DNA from: Actinomycetes bacterium
GTDB taxonomy: Bacteria > Actinomycetota > Acidimicrobiia > Acidimicrobiales > Palsa-688
Direction of reading: 5' to 3'
NCBI GenBank assembly: GCA_021850325.1
Contig: JAJZMF010000035.1
Span: 7,666 to 71,665, forward strand
Length of the DNA stretch: 64,000 nucleotides
Shown here: piece after piece, positions 4,219 to 31,411 of the stretch
Layout of the letters: the number at the start of each line of letters is the position of its first letter
Position numbering within the stretch: position 1 is the first letter of the stretch
Program-made: the position numbers and the translations under genes
Notes under the pieces: generated by a model
Database searches by the model: none
Seen by the model: the letters and a program-made list of their open reading frames with translations, nothing else
What the model was told of the DNA's origin: nothing

Positions 4219-4872
4219 CTACTTGGACCCCCACCGCCGCTCGTAGTGTCGGGTGCCGGGAGCGGGCCCAGGGAGCGGACCGCTCTGGCTACTGGTGCTG
4301 AGGCCATCAATGGCGAGAGCAAGCAGGCGTTCTCTGACGATGCTGTCTTTATCCAAGGGGTCGAAACGACCGAACAGCTCGATCAGCCAGGCGATGTCGA
4401 GTGGGGTCACGTCGGTGCGTAGGCGGCCGCCCTCGTGGGCCCGGGCGACGAGCTGGTCAAGGGAGCGCCGGCCTCGCCGGGCCGTCGCCCACATCTGCGG
4501 CGTGGCTACGATCGTGCCAGCCAGAGGAGCAAGGGACCCGGTCCTTTGGGTGACGCAGGCTCGTATGTAGCTGACGAGTCCCGTCCAAGGATCATCGGCT
4601 TGAAGCCCTTCCTTGGCTGCGTCGATGGTCTGCTCCATGGCGAGGGTGCAGAGCTGTCGAAGGAGATCTTCTTTGCTGCCGTAGCGGCGGTAGAGGCTGC
4701 CGATGCCGACCCCGGCACGTTCCGCGATGGCCGAGACCGTCGCGGCCTCGCCACGGGCCGCAAAGACGTCTCGGGCAGCATCGAGCAGCCGGCGGTCGTT
4801 GCCGGCGGCCTCTGCCTGGCGGCCTCGGCGAGGCGGGTCGGCCTGCTTCCTCACGCAGCCGATGCTAGTCAT
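4219..4872 (-). CDS. TetR/AcrR-family transcriptional repressor
   Basis: 217 aa. The N-terminal helix-turn-helix (about residues 28-75) contains LLDAARDVFAARGEAATVSAIAE and GIGSLYRRYGSKEDLLRQL, the classic TetR signature. The C-terminal ligand domain is variable. It is divergent from the MDR/LLM oxidoreductase pair. A perfect inverted repeat begins one base after its start codon and an identical-arm repeat follows 30 bp away, so it probably represses both itself and the oxidoreductases. The first operator lies right against the ATG and leaves no ribosome site; the mRNA may be leaderless, or translation may begin at the in-frame GTG at 4854. Confidence 0.93.
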   Translation of the reverse strand: MTSIGCVRKQADPPRRGRQAEAAGNDRRLLDAARDVFAARGEAATVSAIAERAGVGIGSLYRRYGSKEDLLRQLCTLAMEQTIDAAKEGLQADDPWTGLVSYIRACVTQRTGSLAPLAGTIVATPQMWATARRGRRSLDQLVARAHEGGRLRTDVTPLDIAWLIELFGRFDPLDKDSIVRERLLALAIDGLSTSSQSGPLPGPAPGTRHYERRWGSK

Positions 4873-7866: not shown

Positions 7867-8127
7867 ATGACCGACGACGGCGCCACTCGGCTCGCCGCGC
7901 TCGGTGTGGCGCTCGACCCGCCGACGCGCCGGCCGCTCACCCGCTACTGCATCGACTGGTCCGAGCAGCGCCCGCACCTGGCGGGCTGGCTCGGCGCCGC
8001 GCTGCTGGCCCGGCTCGTCGAGCTCGGATGGGTGCTCCGTGCCCCCAAGCGCGTGGTGAAGGTCACCGACGCCGGCTGGGAAGGCTTGGCCGAGCGGCTC
8101 GCCGTTGACGTCGATGTCTGCCGCTGA
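7867..8127 (+). pseudogene. C-terminal remnant of an ArsR-family regulator
   Basis: Up to 86 aa from an in-frame ATG: MTDDGATRLAALGVALDP, then RRPLTRYCIDWSEQRPHLAGWL and ARLVELGWVLRAPKRVVKVTDAGWEGLAE. The block CxDWSExRPHLAGxLGAALLxxLxELGW is the C-terminal half of a group of ArsR-like regulators. The winged-helix DNA-binding half is missing: the frame runs on upstream but has no such character and collides with the opposing FtsX fragment. Probably non-functional. Confidence 0.65.
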
Positions 8128-8733: not shown

Positions 8734-9138
8734 CCGCGGCTCATCGTCATCTCCCAACGCCGAGGAGATTCGTCGTTTCTCGGGGAAGGTGGTCCCGATC
8801 GGCAGTGATCGAGTAGGGCAGCCGCCTGGGCGGCTGCAGAGGGCGGGCGCCGTCACCAGCTACTTCGCCGGGACTGAACCCGATGGTCGTGGGCTGGCCC
8901 TGAACCCCAGCCACCATTGAAACGCTGGTCAGCGCGTCTCGTGCTTAGGGCACAGGCGCCTGACCAGCGTTTTCGCGTCCGGCCAGAGGTCGAAGATCGG
9001 GGTTTCTCAGGGCTTTTTCTCGGGACCTACTCAGCTTCGCGCACGATGCCCTATGCAGCCGGGCGCGGCGCGGTGCGGCCCGCACGCTGCGGCTTCCCGC
9101 CGGTGTCGGGGGCGGATGCGCCGTTGCATAGAGCAGCC
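8734..9138. other. Non-coding stretch with repeat copy B
   Basis: No gene recognised. It holds the inverted repeat at 8920-8972 and most of repeat copy B. Another stem (ATGGT...CTGG pairing with CCAGCCACCAT) lies at about 8883-8917. Confidence 0.55.
8920..8972. repeat. Inverted repeat at the left end of repeat copy B
   Basis: AAACGCTGGTCAG (8920-8932) pairs with CTGACCAGCGTTT (8960-8972), a perfect 13-bp stem with a 27-base loop; the last TTT adjoins further T. It could be a terminator for brnTA or a mirrored end of the repeat element. The right arm is the conserved left end of the element. Confidence 0.6.
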
Positions 9139-21368: not shown

Positions 21369-24300
21369 TCAGGACTTGCGCTCGAGGGGGACCGTACGGG
21401 TCATGTCGCCACCCAGCTCGAACTGTTCGTCACGGACGGCGATCCGCACCGGCGGCGCAGCGCTGGGGCGGGCACGAACGGTGACGGTCGTATGGGTGAT
21501 GTCGACCTCTATCCGCTGGCTGTGGTAGTCGAGGACGAAGCGGAGCCGAGGCAATGCATCGGGCAGCCGGGGGTTCAGGTGCAGGACGCCGTCGCGCGCC
21601 GCCAGACCGCTGTAGCAGCGCTGCAAGAGGTCGACGGTGCCGGCCATGGCACCGAGGTGGATCCCTTCAGCGGTGGTGCCGCTCTGGGTGTCGTCGATGT
21701 CAGCAGCGAGCGCGTCGACGAGGAGCTGCCAGGAGCGCTCACGGTCGGTCCGGGCGAGCACCCACGCGCTCACCACGCGACTGAGCGTCGACCCGTGCGA
21801 CGTGCGTTCCAAGTAGTAGTGCACGGTCTCGGGGATGGTCGCAGGGTCGAAGCGGTACCCGAGCCGCGCCAGGAGGGCTTCGATCTCCTCGGCCGTCAGC
21901 AGGTAGAAGAGCATCAGGACGTCGGCCTGTTTGGACAGCTTGTAGCGGTTGGTGCTGTCACCTTCCGCTTCGAGGACCAGGTCCAGCCGTCCGATGTTGC
22001 CGACGCGGCTGCGGTACGCCGACCAGTCGAACTCCTCGAGGTCCTCGTAGCCTTCGAACTGCGCGAGACGCCCCGCTCGGTCGAACGGGACGGTGAGCTT
22101 GCGGCTCACGTCGTCCCAACGCGACAGCTCGTCATCGTCGAGCTGCAGCCGGCTGCACAGTTCTCCCCCGAAGTGCCCTGTCACTACATCGATCGCTTCG
22201 CGGGTGCGCCACAAGAGCCACGCCACCATGACGTTGGTGTAGGCGTTGTTCGACAGACCCGAGCCAGGCGCACCCGGCGGACCGTCGTGGAACTCGTCGG
22301 GGCCCATCACACCACGGATGTCGTAGCGGTCGCGCGTCGCGTCGTGCTGGGCGAGGCCTGCCCAGAACCGCGAGACCTCGATGAGCATTTCGGCACCGTG
22401 CTGCTGCATGAACTGCAGGTCGTTGGTCACCTGGTAGTACGACCAGACGTTGTAGGCGATCGCGAGGCCGACATGGCGCTGCAGGCGGGAGTTGTCGCGC
22501 ATCCACCGTCCGGAACGGACGTTGTAGAGGTACTCCGGCGTCTCCTCCCGCCCGTCCGTCCCGCTCTGCCAAGGGAACATGGCCCCCTCAAACCCGCATG
22601 CCGCGGCCAGTGCGCGCGCCTCGCCCAGCCGGCGGTAGCGGTACAGCAGCAGGGAGCGGGTGAGCTCGGGGAAGCGGAAGTTGAGGAACGGGAAGATGAA
22701 CAGCTCGTCCCAGAACACGTGGCCGCGGTACGCCTCGCCGTGCAGCCCTCGGGCGGTCACACCTGCGTCGAGCTCAGTCGTGTGGGGTGACACCGACTGG
22801 AGGAGGTGGAAGACGTGCAGGTTCACGATGAGCGCGGCACGGTCGTCGACGTCCACCCACAGCCAGGCACGTGACCACAGCGTCTCCCATGCCCTTCGAT
22901 GTGCCGCGACCAGGAAGGGGTAGTCGGGTGCGCGCCCGGTCCGGGTGAGCGCTGCCTGGGTGCACTCGGCGATGGCATGGTCCCTCGACGTGAAGACGGC
23001 GACGGTCTTCTCCACCACCAGCGGCTCGCCGGCGCGCGCCTCGAGGCTGACCACGCGGTCGACCCGGTCATCGGAGCATCGGGCGGTCGCGGGTGCGGCG
23101 GCCTGTGTCCCTCGCGAACGGAACCGGCTGGCCAGCGCAATGTTGACGCCGGACCGCACCGTCTGGGCCGTGAGCACGTCGGTCTCGTCGTCCACTCGTG
23201 ACGCGCTCAGTGTCGCCAGGTGCCGGGCAGCCAGTAGCCGGTACTCGGCCACCCCGGAGTTGGTCACGGCGCCGTCGACGCTCGATCGGACCTGCAACGT
23301 GCCCGACCAGTTCTCGGGCACGATCGTGACCTGGAGCGCCGCGAGGTGCGGGTCCGCCATCGAGGTGAACTGTCGCTGCGTGACCAGCGTGACCCGGTTC
23401 CCCGGGTCGCGCAACCGCAACTCCCTCGTGAGGATGCCGTGACGGATATCGAGCTCCTGTCGATGGCCAAGACGCTCCCAGCTCGGTGCGCCGAACCACT
23501 CCCCGTCCCCAATGCGGAACGTCAGTGCCAGCCAGTTGGGAGCGTTGACAAGCTCTTCGTGCTCCAGTGCCCTCCCGTGGACGCGGCTGACGAGGCGGTT
23601 GTAGACACCGGCAAGGTAGGTGCCTGGGTAACCGGCCTCGCTCACCAGGGCTTCGGGCGCGGCTGCCCGCGTCGCCATGTAACCGTTGCCAGTCGCACAC
23701 AGCGTCTCTCGTCGCCCCTCGTCGGCTGGTTCGTACCCGTCGAAGACAAGCACCCACGATGGTGCCGGTCGTCCGGCAGACGGGCAGCACGTCTCGGTGC
23801 GGCGGACCGTGACGTCGCTGAGGTCACTGACGACGGAACCGGCACCGGCGTCGAAGAGCTGCTTGGCCTGGCCGGCGCGGTCCACCCCGATCACCAGAGC
23901 GAACCCGCCAGCCCGTGCCGCCTGCACGCCGCTGATGGTGCCCTCGACCACCGCCACACGATCGGCGGCCAAGCCGAGACGGTGCGCCGCCTCCAGGAGC
24001 TGCGCCGGCTCTGGCTTGCCAGCAAGTCCCATCCGGTCTGCCTCCACGCCATCGACGAGCACCTCGAACAACCCGTCCAGTCGGGCCATTGCCAGCACCT
24101 CGTCGGCGTCGCGGCTACCCGACACCACGGCAGTTCGGACCCCGCCGCTGAGTAGTGCCCGGACCAGCGCAACCGAGGACGCGGGCACTCGTAAACCGCG
24201 CCGGGACAGCGCCGCCCGGAAGTACCCGTCCTTGCGGTTGGCCAGCCCCCACACCGTCTCAGCGGTCGGCGGGTCGGCCTCCTCCCCCTCCAACAGAGCG

Positions 24301-24566
24301 ATCCCACGGGACTCCAGGAACGCCGCCACCCCGGCCTGGCACGCCCTGCCGTCGACGTACCGTCCGTAGTCCACGACTGGGTCGAACGGGGGGAACGGCG
24401 CGCCGCCGCGCAGTTCTCGTTCGGCCCGGTAGTTGTCGAAAAGCTCCTGCCACGCCATGGAATCCAGCCGCGCTGTGCCCATCAGGGCTCCGTCCAAGTC
24501 GAAAATGACGGCGTCAATCGCTGCGGGGTCGAGAACAGCCCGGGAACGGTCGGGGGGCGCCGTCAT
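21369..24566 (-). CDS. HAD beta-phosphoglucomutase / GH65 disaccharide phosphorylase fusion
   Basis: 1065 aa. Residues about 15-250 are a HAD hydrolase of the beta-phosphoglucomutase type: AVIFDLDGALMG (D23, D25), VVSGSRDADEVLA, KPEPAQLLEAA and VVEGTISGVQAA. About 270-1040 is a glycoside hydrolase 65 enzyme with (alpha/alpha)6 barrel motifs HVFWDELFIFPFLNFRFPE and GVMGPDEFHDG, where E758 is the expected catalytic acid. The phosphate loop is TSHGSTLSRV. GH65 phosphorolyses trehalose, maltose or kojibiose to beta-glucose-1-phosphate, which the HAD domain could turn into glucose-6-phosphate, so the fusion would channel both steps. M. tuberculosis Rv2006 (otsB1) has the same pairing. Start: the first ATG before the HAD core. 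Confidence 0.9.
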   Translation of the reverse strand: MTAPPDRSRAVLDPAAIDAVIFDLDGALMGTARLDSMAWQELFDNYRAERELRGGAPFPPFDPVVDYGRYVDGRACQAGVAAFLESRGIALLEGEEADPPTAETVWGLANRKDGYFRAALSRRGLRVPASSVALVRALLSGGVRTAVVSGSRDADEVLAMARLDGLFEVLVDGVEADRMGLAGKPEPAQLLEAAHRLGLAADRVAVVEGTISGVQAARAGGFALVIGVDRAGQAKQLFDAGAGSVVSDLSDVTVRRTETCCPSAGRPAPSWVLVFDGYEPADEGRRETLCATGNGYMATRAAAPEALVSEAGYPGTYLAGVYNRLVSRVHGRALEHEELVNAPNWLALTFRIGDGEWFGAPSWERLGHRQELDIRHGILTRELRLRDPGNRVTLVTQRQFTSMADPHLAALQVTIVPENWSGTLQVRSSVDGAVTNSGVAEYRLLAARHLATLSASRVDDETDVLTAQTVRSGVNIALASRFRSRGTQAAAPATARCSDDRVDRVVSLEARAGEPLVVEKTVAVFTSRDHAIAECTQAALTRTGRAPDYPFLVAAHRRAWETLWSRAWLWVDVDDRAALIVNLHVFHLLQSVSPHTTELDAGVTARGLHGEAYRGHVFWDELFIFPFLNFRFPELTRSLLLYRYRRLGEARALAAACGFEGAMFPWQSGTDGREETPEYLYNVRSGRWMRDNSRLQRHVGLAIAYNVWSYYQVTNDLQFMQQHGAEMLIEVSRFWAGLAQHDATRDRYDIRGVMGPDEFHDGPPGAPGSGLSNNAYTNVMVAWLLWRTREAIDVVTGHFGGELCSRLQLDDDELSRWDDVSRKLTVPFDRAGRLAQFEGYEDLEEFDWSAYRSRVGNIGRLDLVLEAEGDSTNRYKLSKQADVLMLFYLLTAEEIEALLARLGYRFDPATIPETVHYYLERTSHGSTLSRVVSAWVLARTDRERSWQLLVDALAADIDDTQSGTTAEGIHLGAMAGTVDLLQRCYSGLAARDGVLHLNPRLPDALPRLRFVLDYHSQRIEVDITHTTVTVRARPSAAPPVRIAVRDEQFELGGDMTRTVPLERKS

Positions 24567-24633
24567 CGGCCCCTGGCCCGCCTGGTGTGGCCTGCCGTGG
24601 GCCCGGCGTCCCTCATCAACGGCCGCATGGCGC

Positions 24634-24922
24634 TCAGTGCTCCCGGCTCCAGCCTGAGACGGCCGGCTGGCCCTCATCGTGGTCCCGGCCGTAGACGCAA
24701 GCGGCCAGGCGCTCGTCAGCCAAGTTCTGGCACAGCGCGCCGACCTGGGAGCCCAGGCCAGGTACCCGGTCGACCACGTCCATTGGCCGGTGGAAGCGGT
24801 GGTCCATCAGCGACCGCACGCAGTTGGCGACTGGCGGCAGTGGGCCCGGATGATCTCGGCCTGTCGGCGAGCGCCACGGCGTGAGGACGTGCGCATCGGG
24901 GAGCATTGCATAGCGGGCCATG
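24634..24922 (-). pseudogene. Probable decayed PIN-type toxin partner
   Basis: The frame starts MARYAMLPDAHVLTPWRSPT a few bases after the HTH antitoxin stop. The opening MARYAxxxDAxVL matches the first strand and catalytic Asp of PIN toxins that normally follow this antitoxin type. After about 15 residues the similarity is lost and the other acidic motifs are absent. Most likely a truncated toxin; 96 aa could still be translated. Confidence 0.45.
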
Positions 24923-25615: not shown

Positions 25616-28600
25616 CTACGAGCCGCTGTACGGGAAGTCCGTCGGGAGGCCGCCCGTGCCGGGTACGGGGACTGCAGCCGTGCCGCCGTAACCGTCGGCC
25701 GCCAGCTGGGCGGCGGTTGCGAAGGGGTAGAGGGCGCCGTTGTAGGTGACGGAGACGGCCCATGTCCTGGCAGGCCCGGGGTGGACGAGCAGCACACCCG
25801 AGGCGACCTTGGCCCTCGTCTCGGTTGCCGTGACCGTGCCGGCTCGGGACTGGGCCGGGTCACCGCGCCTTATCTCGGTGAGGAGGGCGGACGTCGGCAC
25901 CCCGAACGCTCTCCCTCCGGCGAAGACGTAGTAGGTCCTGCCGGAGTCGGCAATGGCACCGTCGGAGGCAGTTGACAGAGCCGTCACGCCTGCCTTGCCG
26001 ACCGTCGCCGGGGAGACAGTGAGACCGGCCAAGCCGGCCACCGTGACGACGAGGGCCGGGTCGAAGCCGCCGTGCAGCAACTGGGCCTCACTGGCGAACC
26101 CGTGGAGCTCACCGTCCGTCCCTACGACGTACACGGTCCGGTCGTGGGTGACGGCGTAGCTCGTGAGGAGGGTGCCGGACCGGGGGCGCAGCCCCGTTGG
26201 AGCGGTCCTGCCCGGAGGCGCTTCGACGACACGGGCGTGGTCAACCACCCGGAGGGCGGCGAGCTGCTCCCTGGCCACCGCGAAGGCCCTACCGCCGGCG
26301 AAAACGTAATAGGTCCCGGAGAAGTCGACAATCGCCCCGTTTGGCTCCGAGGTCACCGCTCCCGGGAAGGGCGGGTAGCCCGGTGACGACGGCACGGTGG
26401 TCGACGTCGTGGTGGTCGACGTCGTGGCCGGGGGCCCTACGACCGGGGGCGCCCCAGCCGTCGGGCTCGTGCCGGTCGTGGTCGCTGTGGTGGTCGTGGT
26501 CGCTGCGGTGGTCGTGGTCGGCGCTGCGGTGGTCGTGGTCGGCGCTGCGGTGGTCGTGGTCGGCGCTGCGGTGGTCGTGGTCGGCGCTGCGGTGGTCGTA
26601 GTGGTCGGCACGGTCGTCGTGGTCGTGGTCGTGGGCGAAGGGCTGGTGATGTCGAAGCCCAGCGGCCCATTGGTCCCGTCGGGAGTGCGGACGACCACCA
26701 ACACCTCTCCTGAGCCGTTCGGGGCGTCGAAGGTGATCTCGGTGTCGGAAACCAAATGGAACGCAGTGGATGAACCACCGACGTTCAGAGCGGTGGCGAG
26801 GGTGAAGCCGTGACCGGTCAGCGTGACCGGGGTGCCCGGCGGGCCGAAACCGGGGTTCATCTGGCTGACGACCGGAGGTGCGTACTGGAAGGCCCCGGCG
26901 TCGCAGGTGGTCGAAGGGGGCTGGGGCGTGGGGACGCCACGTTGGTCGGTGACCGGGCAGTCGGCCTGGGGGACGATGTCGTAGGCCACGCTTGCCGAAC
27001 CGATGGCCTGGGTCTCGCTGGGGCCACCATTGTCCCCAAGAGGGCCGAGGCCGATGTTGGCGTCGGTGGCGAACCTCGAGGATGATGCCGTCAGGCACGT
27101 CGCCCCGTCCGCGACGTTGTAGCCGCCGTCGGTGATGGTACCGGCACAGTTCTCGGGCGAGTTGGGACCGGCGCCACCGGACTGGGCCGCCAGGAGGCTG
27201 GCCGTGACGGTAAGCGTGCCAGCCCCGGAGCTGGCGTTGAAGAGCCCGCCACCGTCACCCGCCGTCCCTGGGAGGCCCGTGGTCCCATTGGCGCCTGGAG
27301 CGCCGGCCGACCCGGTGGAGCCAGTTGCACCGTCGGGGGTGCCCGTACCTCCGGCTCCGGCTAGCCCAGCCGCCCCCCCGCTGCCGGCCGGGCCGGCAAA
27401 GGCAGCGGCGCCCGCGGCGCCGGCGGTGTTCCCGGAGAACGTCGAGGTCTTCACGGACGTGCTGGCGCTACCGGAGTTGTAGAGCCCCCCTCCCTGGCCG
27501 CCGGCACCGGCTTGGCCACCAGCGCCCCCGTCGGCACCGGCACCTCCGTTGCCGCCCGTGCCCCCGCTCCCGCCGGCACCGCCGGTCCCGCTCCCGCCCG
27601 CGCCTCCGTTGCCACCCACGCCCCCGGCACCGCCAGGCTGCCCTCCGCCAGCGTTGCCCCCATCGCCGGCGCTGTTCCCGGCGAAGGTGCTGCTTACGAC
27701 GCTCAAGTGACCGCCGTTGTAGACGGCTCCCCCGCTGCCGCCGTCGCCCCCGGCGCCACCGGTGCCACCCTGGCCACCGGCGCCCCCGGTCCCGCCCGCT
27801 TGGCCCGCCCCGCCTGTCGTGCCGTTGCTCCCCGAGGCACCGTTGGCGCCGTTGCCGCCACCACCTCCGTTGCCTCCGCTACCTCCGTTACCTCCTGCAC
27901 CGTTGGTGTTGCCGGTGACAGCCGATGTCTCGATGGTGCTGGCGCCGGCGTTGTACACACCGGCCCCGGCACCACCCGTACCGCCTGCTCCGCCTGCTCC
28001 GCCTGCTCCGCCCATGTTCCCGTCCAAGCCAGAGCCGTTTATGAAGTCTTGTCCACCGTTGCCAGCGGCACCACCGGGACCACCCGACCCGGTGGTGTTG
28101 GCGTACACCTTCGTGGCCGTCACGGTCAACGAGGCTCCCGTGGCGTCGTAGATGCCACCGCCATCGCCACCACCGCCGCCGCTCCCGCCGTCGCCGCCGG
28201 CGCTGCCGTTGCCACCGAAGCCGCCCACGCCGCCTCGAACGCTGTCCACGTTGTGCGCGACGACCGACGTCTCGATGACCATGGTCCCGGCGTTGTAAAC
28301 GCCCACCCCGGAACCGACGCTACCGCCGGCACCGCCGTTCTCCCCCACCACCCCGCTGAAGCCGTTGGCGCCTTCACCCCCGTTGCCGCCGGCACCGGTC
28401 GTGTTGGACGACACCGTCGAGGCGGTCATGGTCAGGGAGGCCACAGCGGCGTTGTAGATGCCACCCCCGTTGCCCCCGTTGCCGCCGGCACCGCCGGGAC
28501 CGGCAGCGTCCTGGGCCCCGTTGCCGCCTGTGCCGGTTGTGTTGAGCTCGATGGTGGCGCCCGTGAGGGTCAGGTCCCCGGCATTGTAGATACCACCGCC

Positions 28601-29119
28601 GTTGCCGCCGGAGGCCCCGTCAGCTTGCTGCAGGGTGCCGCCGCTCTGGCCGGCGGCCCCATTGGCGGAGGCACCATGCTGGACTATCACCCCGGACAGG
28701 TCCACATAGCCACCGGTCACGTCGAGGACCGTGGACGAGCTGCCTCCGTCCAGGATGGGTGCGTTGATAGCGGTGGCCGGCTCGATCGTGACAGGGGCCG
28801 CCGAGGTCCCGCCGACGACGGTGAAACCGCCCGGGGTGGTGTAGTACGTGGCCGTGTCGGCCTCGGTGCCGGGAGTTGTCAGGACTATTGTGCCGCCGGC
28901 CTGGACATCGAGGAGGGCCTCGGAGAGCGAGCACTCGTCGGCTTGGACGGCGCTCTGCGAGCAGCTGGCCGGAGCGCTGCCGCTGCCGCCGGCATATGCG
29001 TACAGGGTGGCGGGCGCAGCTCCGGCCGGGCTGGTGGCGTAGACAGCCTGGCCGACGGCCACCAGCGCCAGGGCGCCCAGTACGGCCGCAGCCCTGCGGG
29101 CCGACCACCTTCGGGCCAT
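25616..29119 (-). CDS. Giant glycine-rich secreted protein with beta-helix, IPT/TIG and Thr-rich stalk
   Basis: 1167 aa from the ATG before a signal peptide (MARRWSARRAAAVLGALALV, cleavage near AGA-AP). About residues 40-160 open a right-handed beta-helix of the CSLSEALLDVQAGGTIVLTTPG type. About 160-720 is GGNGG/GGAGG sequence broken every 60-90 residues by GxxYNAGxxTxxxSxxxxNT, strikingly like PE_PGRS proteins. An IPT/TIG domain follows (PPVVSQMNPGFGPPGTPVTL). A stalk of AAPTTTT repeats comes next. The C-terminal region carries two GxYYVFAGGRAFxV motifs. No LPxTG or membrane anchor is visible. Likely cell-surface; binding partner unknown. Confidence 0.82.
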   Translation of the reverse strand: MARRWSARRAAAVLGALALVAVGQAVYATSPAGAAPATLYAYAGGSGSAPASCSQSAVQADECSLSEALLDVQAGGTIVLTTPGTEADTATYYTTPGGFTVVGGTSAAPVTIEPATAINAPILDGGSSSTVLDVTGGYVDLSGVIVQHGASANGAAGQSGGTLQQADGASGGNGGGIYNAGDLTLTGATIELNTTGTGGNGAQDAAGPGGAGGNGGNGGGIYNAAVASLTMTASTVSSNTTGAGGNGGEGANGFSGVVGENGGAGGSVGSGVGVYNAGTMVIETSVVAHNVDSVRGGVGGFGGNGSAGGDGGSGGGGGDGGGIYDATGASLTVTATKVYANTTGSGGPGGAAGNGGQDFINGSGLDGNMGGAGGAGGAGGTGGAGAGVYNAGASTIETSAVTGNTNGAGGNGGSGGNGGGGGNGANGASGSNGTTGGAGQAGGTGGAGGQGGTGGAGGDGGSGGAVYNGGHLSVVSSTFAGNSAGDGGNAGGGQPGGAGGVGGNGGAGGSGTGGAGGSGGTGGNGGAGADGGAGGQAGAGGQGGGLYNSGSASTSVKTSTFSGNTAGAAGAAAFAGPAGSGGAAGLAGAGGTGTPDGATGSTGSAGAPGANGTTGLPGTAGDGGGLFNASSGAGTLTVTASLLAAQSGGAGPNSPENCAGTITDGGYNVADGATCLTASSSRFATDANIGLGPLGDNGGPSETQAIGSASVAYDIVPQADCPVTDQRGVPTPQPPSTTCDAGAFQYAPPVVSQMNPGFGPPGTPVTLTGHGFTLATALNVGGSSTAFHLVSDTEITFDAPNGSGEVLVVVRTPDGTNGPLGFDITSPSPTTTTTTTVPTTTTTAAPTTTTAAPTTTTAAPTTTTAAPTTTTAATTTTTATTTGTSPTAGAPPVVGPPATTSTTTTSTTVPSSPGYPPFPGAVTSEPNGAIVDFSGTYYVFAGGRAFAVAREQLAALRVVDHARVVEAPPGRTAPTGLRPRSGTLLTSYAVTHDRTVYVVGTDGELHGFASEAQLLHGGFDPALVVTVAGLAGLTVSPATVGKAGVTALSTASDGAIADSGRTYYVFAGGRAFGVPTSALLTEIRRGDPAQSRAGTVTATETRAKVASGVLLVHPGPARTWAVSVTYNGALYPFATAAQLAADGYGGTAAVPVPGTGGLPTDFPYSGS
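26489..26590. repeat. 21-bp tandem repeat coding the Thr-rich stalk
   Basis: Four perfect copies of a 21-bp unit (26507-26590) preceded by an 18-bp variant (26489-26506). On the coding (minus) strand they give AAPTTTT repeats. Exact copies suggest slippage-driven length variation of the stalk. Confidence 0.9.
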
Positions 29120-29403
29120 GCCCGCTGCTCGGGCCGAGCCGAGGTGAACTGGGTACGCCACCTTCGTTGCCCGGACCGTGTTCGACTGCACTCCTGTACG
29201 GCGCACCTGACCGCCTCCCTCAGCCGCACCTACTGCGGCGGGGCCGGAGTCTTGCCGACGGTCCCCACGTTGTCAAAGGCTGATGCTCGGAGGTCCCATC
29301 CCCGCCTGCACCTGTCCCTCCCCGCTCCCATGTGCTCCCCAGGGTGGGTTGCCAAGGACGTTCGGCCCTGATCCTCCGCCCCCCAAGGGGGTGTGCTGAA
29401 GAG

Positions 29404-30177
29404 ATGGCCAAGAACACCCTGAGCAGGGCACCAGCCCGGCTCCGCTCCTACAACCTCGTCGCCGCCACGCTGCACACCGCACAGGCCATCGCCGTCGTGG
29501 TCTTCGCCAACAGCTTCTCCTTGCCGGTGCGGGCCACGTACATGACCGGGCCTCCCGGCCCCGGGGTCGGCAGGCAGGCCGTAACGCTGTTCGACCTGCG
29601 CTTCGCCTGGGCCATTGCCGGCTTCTTCGCCCTGTCGGCCGTGGCCCATCTGGTGGTCGCGGGGCCGGCATGGCGCTCGTACCGGGCCCAGCTCGACAGG
29701 CACCGCAACCCGTACCGCTGGCTCGAGTACTCCCTCAGCGCGTCGCTGATGGTCGTGCTCATCGCCATGCTCGTCGGCATCGACGACGTTGCCGCCCTGA
29801 TCGCCCTGGCCGGTGTGAACGCGTCCATGATCGCCTTCGGCTGGCTCCAGGAGCGCTATGAACCGCCGGGCCGGGGCCTCGGCCCCTTCTGGATGGGCTG
29901 CCTCGCCGGTGTCGTCCCGTGGGTGGCAATCGGCGTCTACCTTGCCGGGCCTGGGGCAGGTGCCCGTCCGCCCGCGTTCGTCTATGCCATATTCGTGTCG
30001 CTGTTCGTGGCGTTCAACTGCTTCGCCCTCAACCAGTTGCTCCAGTACCGACAGGTGGGGCGGTGGCGGGAGTACCTGGTCGGCGAGCGAAGCTACGTGA
30101 CGCTGTCGCTGTTGGCCAAGAGCCTCCTTGCGTGGCAGATCTTCGCCTCTACGCTGGCATCGGCGGCCGCGCACTGA
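29404..30177 (+). CDS. Heliorhodopsin
   Basis: 257 aa, seven hydrophobic segments, matching the heliorhodopsin family rather than type-1 rhodopsins. Signatures: RWLEYSLSASLMVVLIAML in helix 3 with the Schiff-base counter-ion E108, and YVTLSLLAKSLLAWQIFAST in helix 7 with the retinal-binding K239. H24 and H82 fall where the prototype 48C12 has H23 and H80; its counter-ion and lysine are E107 and K241. The N-terminus should face the cytoplasm, opposite to type-1 rhodopsins. Heliorhodopsins do not pump ions; proposed roles are light sensing or enzyme regulation. No retinal-forming blh gene is nearby. It is divergent from the giant surface protein gene; the ribosome site is weak (GAAGAG). Confidence 0.93.
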   Translation: MAKNTLSRAPARLRSYNLVAATLHTAQAIAVVVFANSFSLPVRATYMTGPPGPGVGRQAVTLFDLRFAWAIAGFFALSAVAHLVVAGPAWRSYRAQLDRHRNPYRWLEYSLSASLMVVLIAMLVGIDDVAALIALAGVNASMIAFGWLQERYEPPGRGLGPFWMGCLAGVVPWVAIGVYLAGPGAGARPPAFVYAIFVSLFVAFNCFALNQLLQYRQVGRWREYLVGERSYVTLSLLAKSLLAWQIFASTLASAAAH

Positions 30178-30247: not shown

Positions 30248-31411
30248 CTAAAAGGGCCGGCCTCCGCCTGGCCCGGGTAGGGCCGGCTCGCGGCACAACG
30301 AGCGCGACAGGGAGAAGATGTTCTCACCGCGGTACACCAGGTCGCGGTCCTGGGACACGTGCCAGCGTAGGAAGTTGTCACTGGTCCCCTGGCCGGGGAG
30401 CATCCAGTCGTGGAGCTCGATCATGACCACCGGGAACTTGTCGATGGCCTTCGTGTTGCCGGAGAACAGGTCGGCTTCCGCGCCCTCGATGTCCACCTTC
30501 AGGACGAACGGCACTGTACCCGGCTCCATGGCCACGACCTGCTCGAGCGAGGTGGCTTCCACCCTGCCTATGGGCGCGAGGTCGCAACCCGCTCGCTCCG
30601 TCCGGTAACCCCACTCGCCGGTCCCCGGGTCGTACAGATCCAACATGCCCGCCCGCGCCGCGATCGCCGCGTTCAGGGGCCGCACCGACGGGAAGGCCCT
30701 CACGTTGTTGACCAGGAGCGAGTAGTTCTCCTTCTCCGGCTCCAGGGCCACGATACGAGCTGCCGGGTAGCGGATGGCGAAGTAGGCGCTCGAAACCCCG
30801 ATGTTGGCTCCACAGTCGACTACCAGAGGCCGGCCACCGAGAGCGCCTACGTCCTCGTAGCGTCCCAGCCCGGGCCTGCCCTTGAAGGGCTCCAACGAGT
30901 AGCACTGGTCCCTGAAGATCTGGCAGAGCACGCTCAGGTCGGCCTCGCTGTTGCGGTGGACGAAGTCCCAGGTGTCGTTGACCCTGGCCGTATGCCACCG
31001 AGGGCTCACCGCCGCCAGGTCCAGTAGGGGCCCCCTGGGCAGGACGGCATCTCGGATGCTCGAGGGAGCCCCGCGACCCACGGGCCGTAGGGAGGAGAAC
31101 GGCCCATGCTCCCCGCCGCCTCGGCCGGTGTAGATCGCCGTGCAGCTCTCAGCCAGCTCGAGCTCGCACTCGGCGTCCGCAGGCACGAGCAGTACATGGG
31201 CAGTCGAGGCATCGTCTGCTATGCCCGCGGCCTGGAACGTGGAGCGCATCGTGGCCACCACCTGGTCAGCGGGGCAGCTTCCCGGGTGCACGACCAAGGT
31301 GACGTCGTCACGGCCTGAGATGGCCTGGGCCCATTCCGCCAGCATGGACGGCTCGGCCGCCAGCTCGTCGGCCAGAGCCAGGACAGCAGTGCTACGAGCG
31401 TCTGCGAACAC
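30248..31411 (-). CDS. FkbM-family SAM-dependent methyltransferase
   Basis: 387 aa from a GTG with GGAAGGAG ahead. Residues 1-130 (ADELAAEPSMLAEWAQAISG, RDDVTLVVHPG) form an accessory domain often fused to glycan-modifying enzymes. About 195-375 is the methyltransferase: LVVDCGANIGVSSAYFAIRY (SAM loop), IVALEPEKENYSLL and VPFVLKVDIEGAEADLFSG. FkbM enzymes O-methylate sugars or polyketides. It is the last minus-strand gene of the cluster, about 100 bp from the GrpB gene, and may be unrelated to peptide uptake. Confidence 0.85.
   Translation of the reverse strand: MFADARSTAVLALADELAAEPSMLAEWAQAISGRDDVTLVVHPGSCPADQVVATMRSTFQAAGIADDASTAHVLLVPADAECELELAESCTAIYTGRGGGEHGPFSSLRPVGRGAPSSIRDAVLPRGPLLDLAAVSPRWHTARVNDTWDFVHRNSEADLSVLCQIFRDQCYSLEPFKGRPGLGRYEDVGALGGRPLVVDCGANIGVSSAYFAIRYPAARIVALEPEKENYSLLVNNVRAFPSVRPLNAAIAARAGMLDLYDPGTGEWGYRTERAGCDLAPIGRVEATSLEQVVAMEPGTVPFVLKVDIEGAEADLFSGNTKAIDKFPVVMIELHDWMLPGQGTSDNFLRWHVSQDRDLVYRGENIFSLSRSLCREPALPGPGGGRPF

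Follow-up and report, generated by a model that had tools for sequence, protein, structure and literature searches.

A conserved DevR/OsdR-type promoter box suggests low-oxygen or redox control of a solitary heliorhodopsin gene in an acidimicrobial clade

The window analyzed here, i.e., a stretch of 64,000 nucleotides, is part of contig C16 of an Actinomycetes genome affiliated with the Acidimicrobiales (GCA_021850325.1; 3.18 Mb, 49 contigs, 95% complete). On its forward strand, at 29404..30177, lies a single heliorhodopsin (HeR) gene encoding 257 amino acids. The product matches the Pfam Heliorhodopsin family PF18761 over the whole profile (positions 1-242 of 242, E 3.5e-96, 321.7 bits), scores 310 bits against the NCBIfam equivalog NF038020 “HeR” (cut-off 100) and aligns over residues 1-257 with 6su3 (E 4.4e-75), a crystal chain of 48C12, the freshwater actinobacterial heliorhodopsin prototype (PDB 6su3/6su4). 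The initial annotation had read this gene as a heliorhodopsin and equated its H24, H82, E108 and K239 with H23, H80, E107 and K241 of 48C12; the profile searches bear out the identity, and in our alignment the four residues pair exactly as proposed. Of these positions, E107 and H80 show no variation across a 57-row HeR alignment, with K241 present in 56 of the rows. With a full-length match, the four diagnostic residues and the same length as 48C12, the frame is confirmed, at the level of sequence, as a genuine, full-length and otherwise ordinary heliorhodopsin. It would thus be a bona fide seven-helix, retinal-binding membrane photoreceptor, with K239 as the predicted Schiff-base lysine, E108 as the counterion and H24 and H82 as the cytoplasmic-side histidines, and its full-length similarity to the solved 48C12 structures implies the inverted topology, with the N-terminus inside. 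What sets it apart from 48C12 is its position in a different clade of the tree, the lack of an operon partner and the DevR-type box ahead of the gene.

Heliorhodopsins are patchily distributed among the genomes searched (26 of 119, this one counted), being absent from both other genomes of the same genus in that set, and the nearest named relatives of the window HeR come from Acidimicrobiaceae-like metagenome genomes. One genome (G100) carries, besides an intact HeR on its contig C8, two C-terminal HeR fragments on C33 (L028 and L029), one of them with an internal stop, adjoining SRPBCC and SDR genes of the type found in light islands (see below). As the initial annotation had noted, no retinal-synthesis gene is linked to HeR, and a search of the whole genome (95% complete) recovered neither a BCD/Blh nor an RPE65-type oxygenase. 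Two phytoene-synthase-like genes on C22, the sole ones of the genome, were considered as a sign of carotenoid synthesis and rejected: they are HpnC and HpnD, and as their operon also holds HpnE, squalene-hopene cyclase and IspH, they serve hopanoid making. Only two of the 26 HeR-bearing genomes (G088 and G093) encode a BCD, so that its absence is usual for the group. Given that no retinal-making gene was found, retinal, if used at all, would have to come from outside the cell.

Both genes flanking HeR run on the opposite strand. Upstream, and head to head with it, lies a giant glycine-rich, secreted-looking protein (25616..29206, reverse strand) that starts at a GTG at 29206 or, likelier, at an ATG at 29119, which leaves roughly 200-280 bp between the two start codons. 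The divergent layout described initially is therefore real, and the label “PE_PGRS-like secreted protein” holds as a resemblance in composition; a Pfam search of the protein gave no family matches. Downstream, a convergent FkbM-type methyltransferase (30248..31411, reverse strand; PF05050, 6.8e-11) has no close copy in 60 relatives and is never adjacent to HeR elsewhere. We consider both flanking genes to lie outside the HeR system. Further to the left, a single protein (21369-24677, reverse strand) combines an N-terminal HAD phosphatase-type domain with a complete GH65 phosphorylase-type enzyme. A scan of the window for RNA elements and tRNAs recovered none.

We compared neighborhoods by tblastn of the window’s neighbors and by clustering of up to seven genes on each side of HeR. 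Except for weak ABC ATPase matches, no neighbor of the window HeR has a counterpart beside HeR at the other loci, and the adjacent genes vary from genome to genome. A recurrent operon partner was also sought across relatives and discarded, as the commonest adjacent family, DUF2867, accounts for only 6 of 109 neighbors and none of the families fits the window. Several heliorhodopsins do have such partners, i.e., a glutamine synthetase for AbHeR (PMC9529153), a photolyase for TfHeR (PMC9769723) and an ABC transporter for OcHeR (PMC11109279). In contrast to these, the window HeR stands alone between two opposite-strand genes, and thus no partner can be named from an operon.

Side-by-side comparison of the upstream regions of the closest HeRs revealed a conserved stretch. 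In the window this is a DevR/OsdR-type box, AGGACGTTCGGCCCT (29355..29369, forward strand), which starts at -49 and is centered at -42 relative to the ATG and is followed, after 22 bp, by a predicted -10-like hexamer TGTGCT (29392..29397, forward strand; -12 to -7 from the ATG). The exact box also precedes HeR in seven relatives (L035, L037, L038, L042, L043, L046 and L048), and its place is kept in nine of nine members of the HeR clade, eight with the exact box and one (L039) with a degenerate copy at -49. Counting the window among the eight exact cases, the box starts at -49 in six and at -50 in one, and in L048 at about -48 to -51 depending on the start codon. In all eight clade members aligned, the hexamer lies 22-23 bp beyond the box and has T at both ends. 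Where the upstream neighbor changes, the box keeps its fixed distance to HeR. We predict that transcription is leaderless, starting at the ATG; with such a start, the box centered at -42 would cover the -35 region, in line with the usual overlap of DevR sites with the -35 element (PMC3029386).

Mean identity among these loci is 92% in the box columns and 57% outside, where seven random sequences would give 49%. The exact box precedes HeR in seven of eight clade members (window excluded), whereas 669 control upstream regions yielded it twice, one of these hits being that very site. Because the loci are relatives of one another and some of them served to derive the pattern, the corresponding Fisher p of 5e-15 should not be read literally, and we regard the contrast between box and flanks as the stronger argument. 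HeRs with the box group in a single clade (support 100/99), so its members are non-independent samples; in the HeRs outside it the box is missing, none of the 48 exceeding the 99% control level. Box-like sites with two mismatches before two of the latter (L066 and L080) were examined and dismissed as no more than chance. The exact pattern RGGACNTTNGNCCCT matches four times in the 3.18-Mb genome, once at HeR, while a reversed control gave no match. The other three copies (L112, L113 and L114:1501-1515) are all intergenic, located between copZ and a sugar-binding protein, upstream of hemB, and between a fructose-bisphosphate aldolase and a HAD gene; copZ, hemB and aldolase genes are not textbook DevR targets. 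In L039, the locus with the degenerate copy, three DevR-type boxes surround HeR (4392-4406, 7894-7908 and 8849-8863; two exact, one with a mismatch), and the adjoining genes encode a small protein, a P-type cation ATPase (transcribed divergently from HeR) and a DUF4389 protein. Taken as an operator of some regulator, whichever it may be, the box is in all likelihood real.

By sequence, the genome clearly encodes one DevR-like response regulator (L128:9034-9681). It matches Mycobacterium tuberculosis DevR (3c3w) with an E of 1.2e-73, the next match being VraR at 1.8e-45; FLAEKTVKNYVS is identical in the recognition regions of the two proteins, and its HTH shares 70% identity with that of DevR, compared with 51% for the genome’s next regulator. 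A box also accompanies the devR locus itself, reading GGGACGTACGTCCCT in this genome (G000), GGGACATATGACCCT in G001 and G002, GGGACATTAGGCCCT in G004 and GGGACGTTAGGCCCT in G022, and in all of these it lies 85-100 bp before the same membrane-protein gene adjoining devR. The copies of G000, G001 and G002 depart from the pattern at one position. [NiFe]-hydrogenase genes are found next door to the devR locus in this genome, G001 and G022; in the first two, a pyruvate:ferredoxin oxidoreductase separates them from devR. Ahead of the hydrogenase operon, G001 and G022 carry a box-like site, and this genome a weak one. Hydrogenases also belong to the Dos regulon of M. smegmatis (PMC8125079). Kinases with HisKA_3 domains occur near HeR or devR in relatives: in L048 a PAS-GAF-HisKA_3 kinase, a relative of the DosT/DevS/DesK-type kinases, is transcribed divergently from HeR, and in G004 PAS/GAF-HisKA_3 kinases lie beside devR.

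The resemblance to the regulons of Mycobacterium DevR/DosR and Streptomyces OsdR (PMC5069765, PMC3029386) thus comprises a near-palindromic GGGAC-N-TTNGNCCCT box that overlaps the predicted -35 region, a DevR-like regulator in the same genome and hydrogenase genes nearby; the HeR box matches published sites of these regulators, the OsdR ones including CGGGACCTTCGGCCCT and AGGGACCTTCGGCCCC (PMC5069765). It departs from them in that the target is a rhodopsin and universal stress proteins are few: the genome has only two such genes, with no box within two mismatches in the stretches around them, and hence a classical Dos regulon is not evident. DevR-like genes are also present in the HeR-less genomes G001, G002 and G018, which makes the tie between DevR and HeR a one-way one.

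In relatives, a light island recurs near HeR, i.e., DUF2867, a CarH/LitR-like B12 regulator, photolyase, DUF1365 and an FAD oxidase. The genome studied here has such an island on C21 (L110:8595-16884, equal to C21:73595-81884), which encodes a CarH/LitR-like B12 regulator, a desaturase, a cyclopropane synthase-like protein, DUF1365, an FAD oxidase, SRPBCC, SDR and photolyase; its CarH-like protein scores 67 bits, below the NCBIfam CarH cut-off of 400. A palindrome, TTTAGCACTAAA, is present in the island’s divergent promoter region in this genome and L036, while L045, L054 and L069 have variants of it; we regard it as a candidate island operator.

Two explanations would place the regulation of HeR elsewhere in its genomic context. 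The initial annotation raised shared regulation of HeR and the divergent giant protein, for example by light, and the head-to-head arrangement speaks for a common promoter region. Already disfavored by the comparative context, it is scarcely credible to us: the flanking genes change completely among relatives, and no giant protein is adjacent to HeR at any of 57 other loci. Searches with its 258-residue C-terminal domain, shared by the family and without a Pfam match, gave four matches in this genome and as many as 16 in another (G010), occurring with or without HeR in the genome, and in the HeR-bearing G004, G022 and G028 the giant-family gene and HeR lie on separate contigs. (Family members are multicopy, large, glycine-rich and secreted-looking; those of this genome are the window copy, G000:C12:36624, G000:C5:13101 and G000:C5:15790.) Moreover, the box, which does lie in the intergenic region common to both genes, follows HeR and not the giant gene, and it resembles the DevR/OsdR box rather than a light-response element. 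Membership of HeR in the CarH/LitR light regulon together with photolyase is suggested by the sister clades, given that in about 14 of 57 relatives island families (DUF2867, CarH-like, photolyase, DUF1365) are found no more than 8 kb from HeR and that photolyase, MerR and SDR neighbors of HeR have been described already (PMC11109279). For the window HeR, however, we rejected CarH-type control and rate it as highly improbable: the island is on C21 and HeR on C16, and TTTAGCACTAAA has no match in the window, even with two mismatches allowed. Another reading concerns the protein and not its promoter, i.e., that a cell unable to make retinal carries a chromophore-free opsin or a decaying remnant. 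The missing BCD/Blh and RPE65-type enzymes and the hopanoid role of HpnC/HpnD fit this, but the Schiff-base lysine, counterion and pocket residues are all intact, the frame is open, the promoter box is conserved and the lack of a BCD is the rule among HeR-bearing relatives, making it very unlikely.

The remaining alternatives accept the locus as described and concern the meaning of the box. It might be inherited background or a chance palindrome, as all its carriers belong to one clade and 0.63 matches with one mismatch are expected by chance in the window; against this, the flanks of the same loci are near-random while the box is fixed in place, and there are four exact copies in 3.18 Mb as opposed to none of the reversed control, such that we give this explanation almost no credence. 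A more substantial, though still unlikely, alternative is that the box is a true HeR operator of another regulator, e.g., of NarL/LuxR type, in which case the signal would not be low oxygen. Other NarL-family regulators bind similar palindromes, the genome encodes further LuxR-type regulators (including the second one at 51% HTH identity), few classical Dos genes are seen, and the middles of the boxes differ (CGTTCGG at HeR vs CGTACGT or CATTAGG at the devR locus). Yet among the genome’s regulators one stands out by its much greater similarity to DevR, and with matrices built from the devR-locus sites alone, or from the published OsdR sites alone, the HeR site in each case scores highest of 127,972 positions in the window. 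Set against the upstream regions of other genes, the same matrices place most box-clade HeRs above the 99% level, the ones below it being L039 and L048 with both matrices and L042 with the OsdR matrix.

We thus consider it probable, judging from comparative sequence evidence, that the window HeR is an ordinary heliorhodopsin whose gene is expressed on its own and controlled by a low-oxygen/redox system of DevR type. Given the box in the -35 region of its promoter, we predict that HeR is part of the DevR-like regulator’s regulon; the gene would be transcribed alone, and its promoter would depend on an activator and probably be leaderless. The regulator would bind this box, and a low-oxygen or redox signal would switch HeR on, acting neither through the giant gene nor through a CarH-like island. 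HeR might then report light inside a low-oxygen program, using retinal taken from outside, and, by analogy with AbHeR, TfHeR and OcHeR, for which such a mode of action has been proposed, it may exert its effect on a partner protein. Since the box is clade-wide, its DevR/OsdR type predicts for the relatives as well that a two-component system responding to low oxygen or redox state controls HeR. With slightly more reserve, we postulate that recruitment into a DevR/DosR-type low-oxygen regulon has taken place across the whole Acidimicrobiaceae-like HeR clade, while in a sister clade HeR is often found in a CarH/photolyase light island.

Heliorhodopsin function is largely open, and most clues so far have come from operon partners. 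In the library searched, “heliorhodopsin” and “DosR” had no joint mention, and “heliorhodopsin” with “DevR” gave nothing relevant, judged mostly by title (some matches being an author’s name). The window HeR has no operon partner, yet its conserved promoter box points to a named regulator and signal, which makes a direct test of low-oxygen, DevR-like control of a heliorhodopsin possible. It also appears that one protein family has come under different regulatory settings in sister clades. If true, the recruitment would provide a rare cis-regulatory clue to when heliorhodopsin is produced, and would tie its function to hypoxia or redox physiology.
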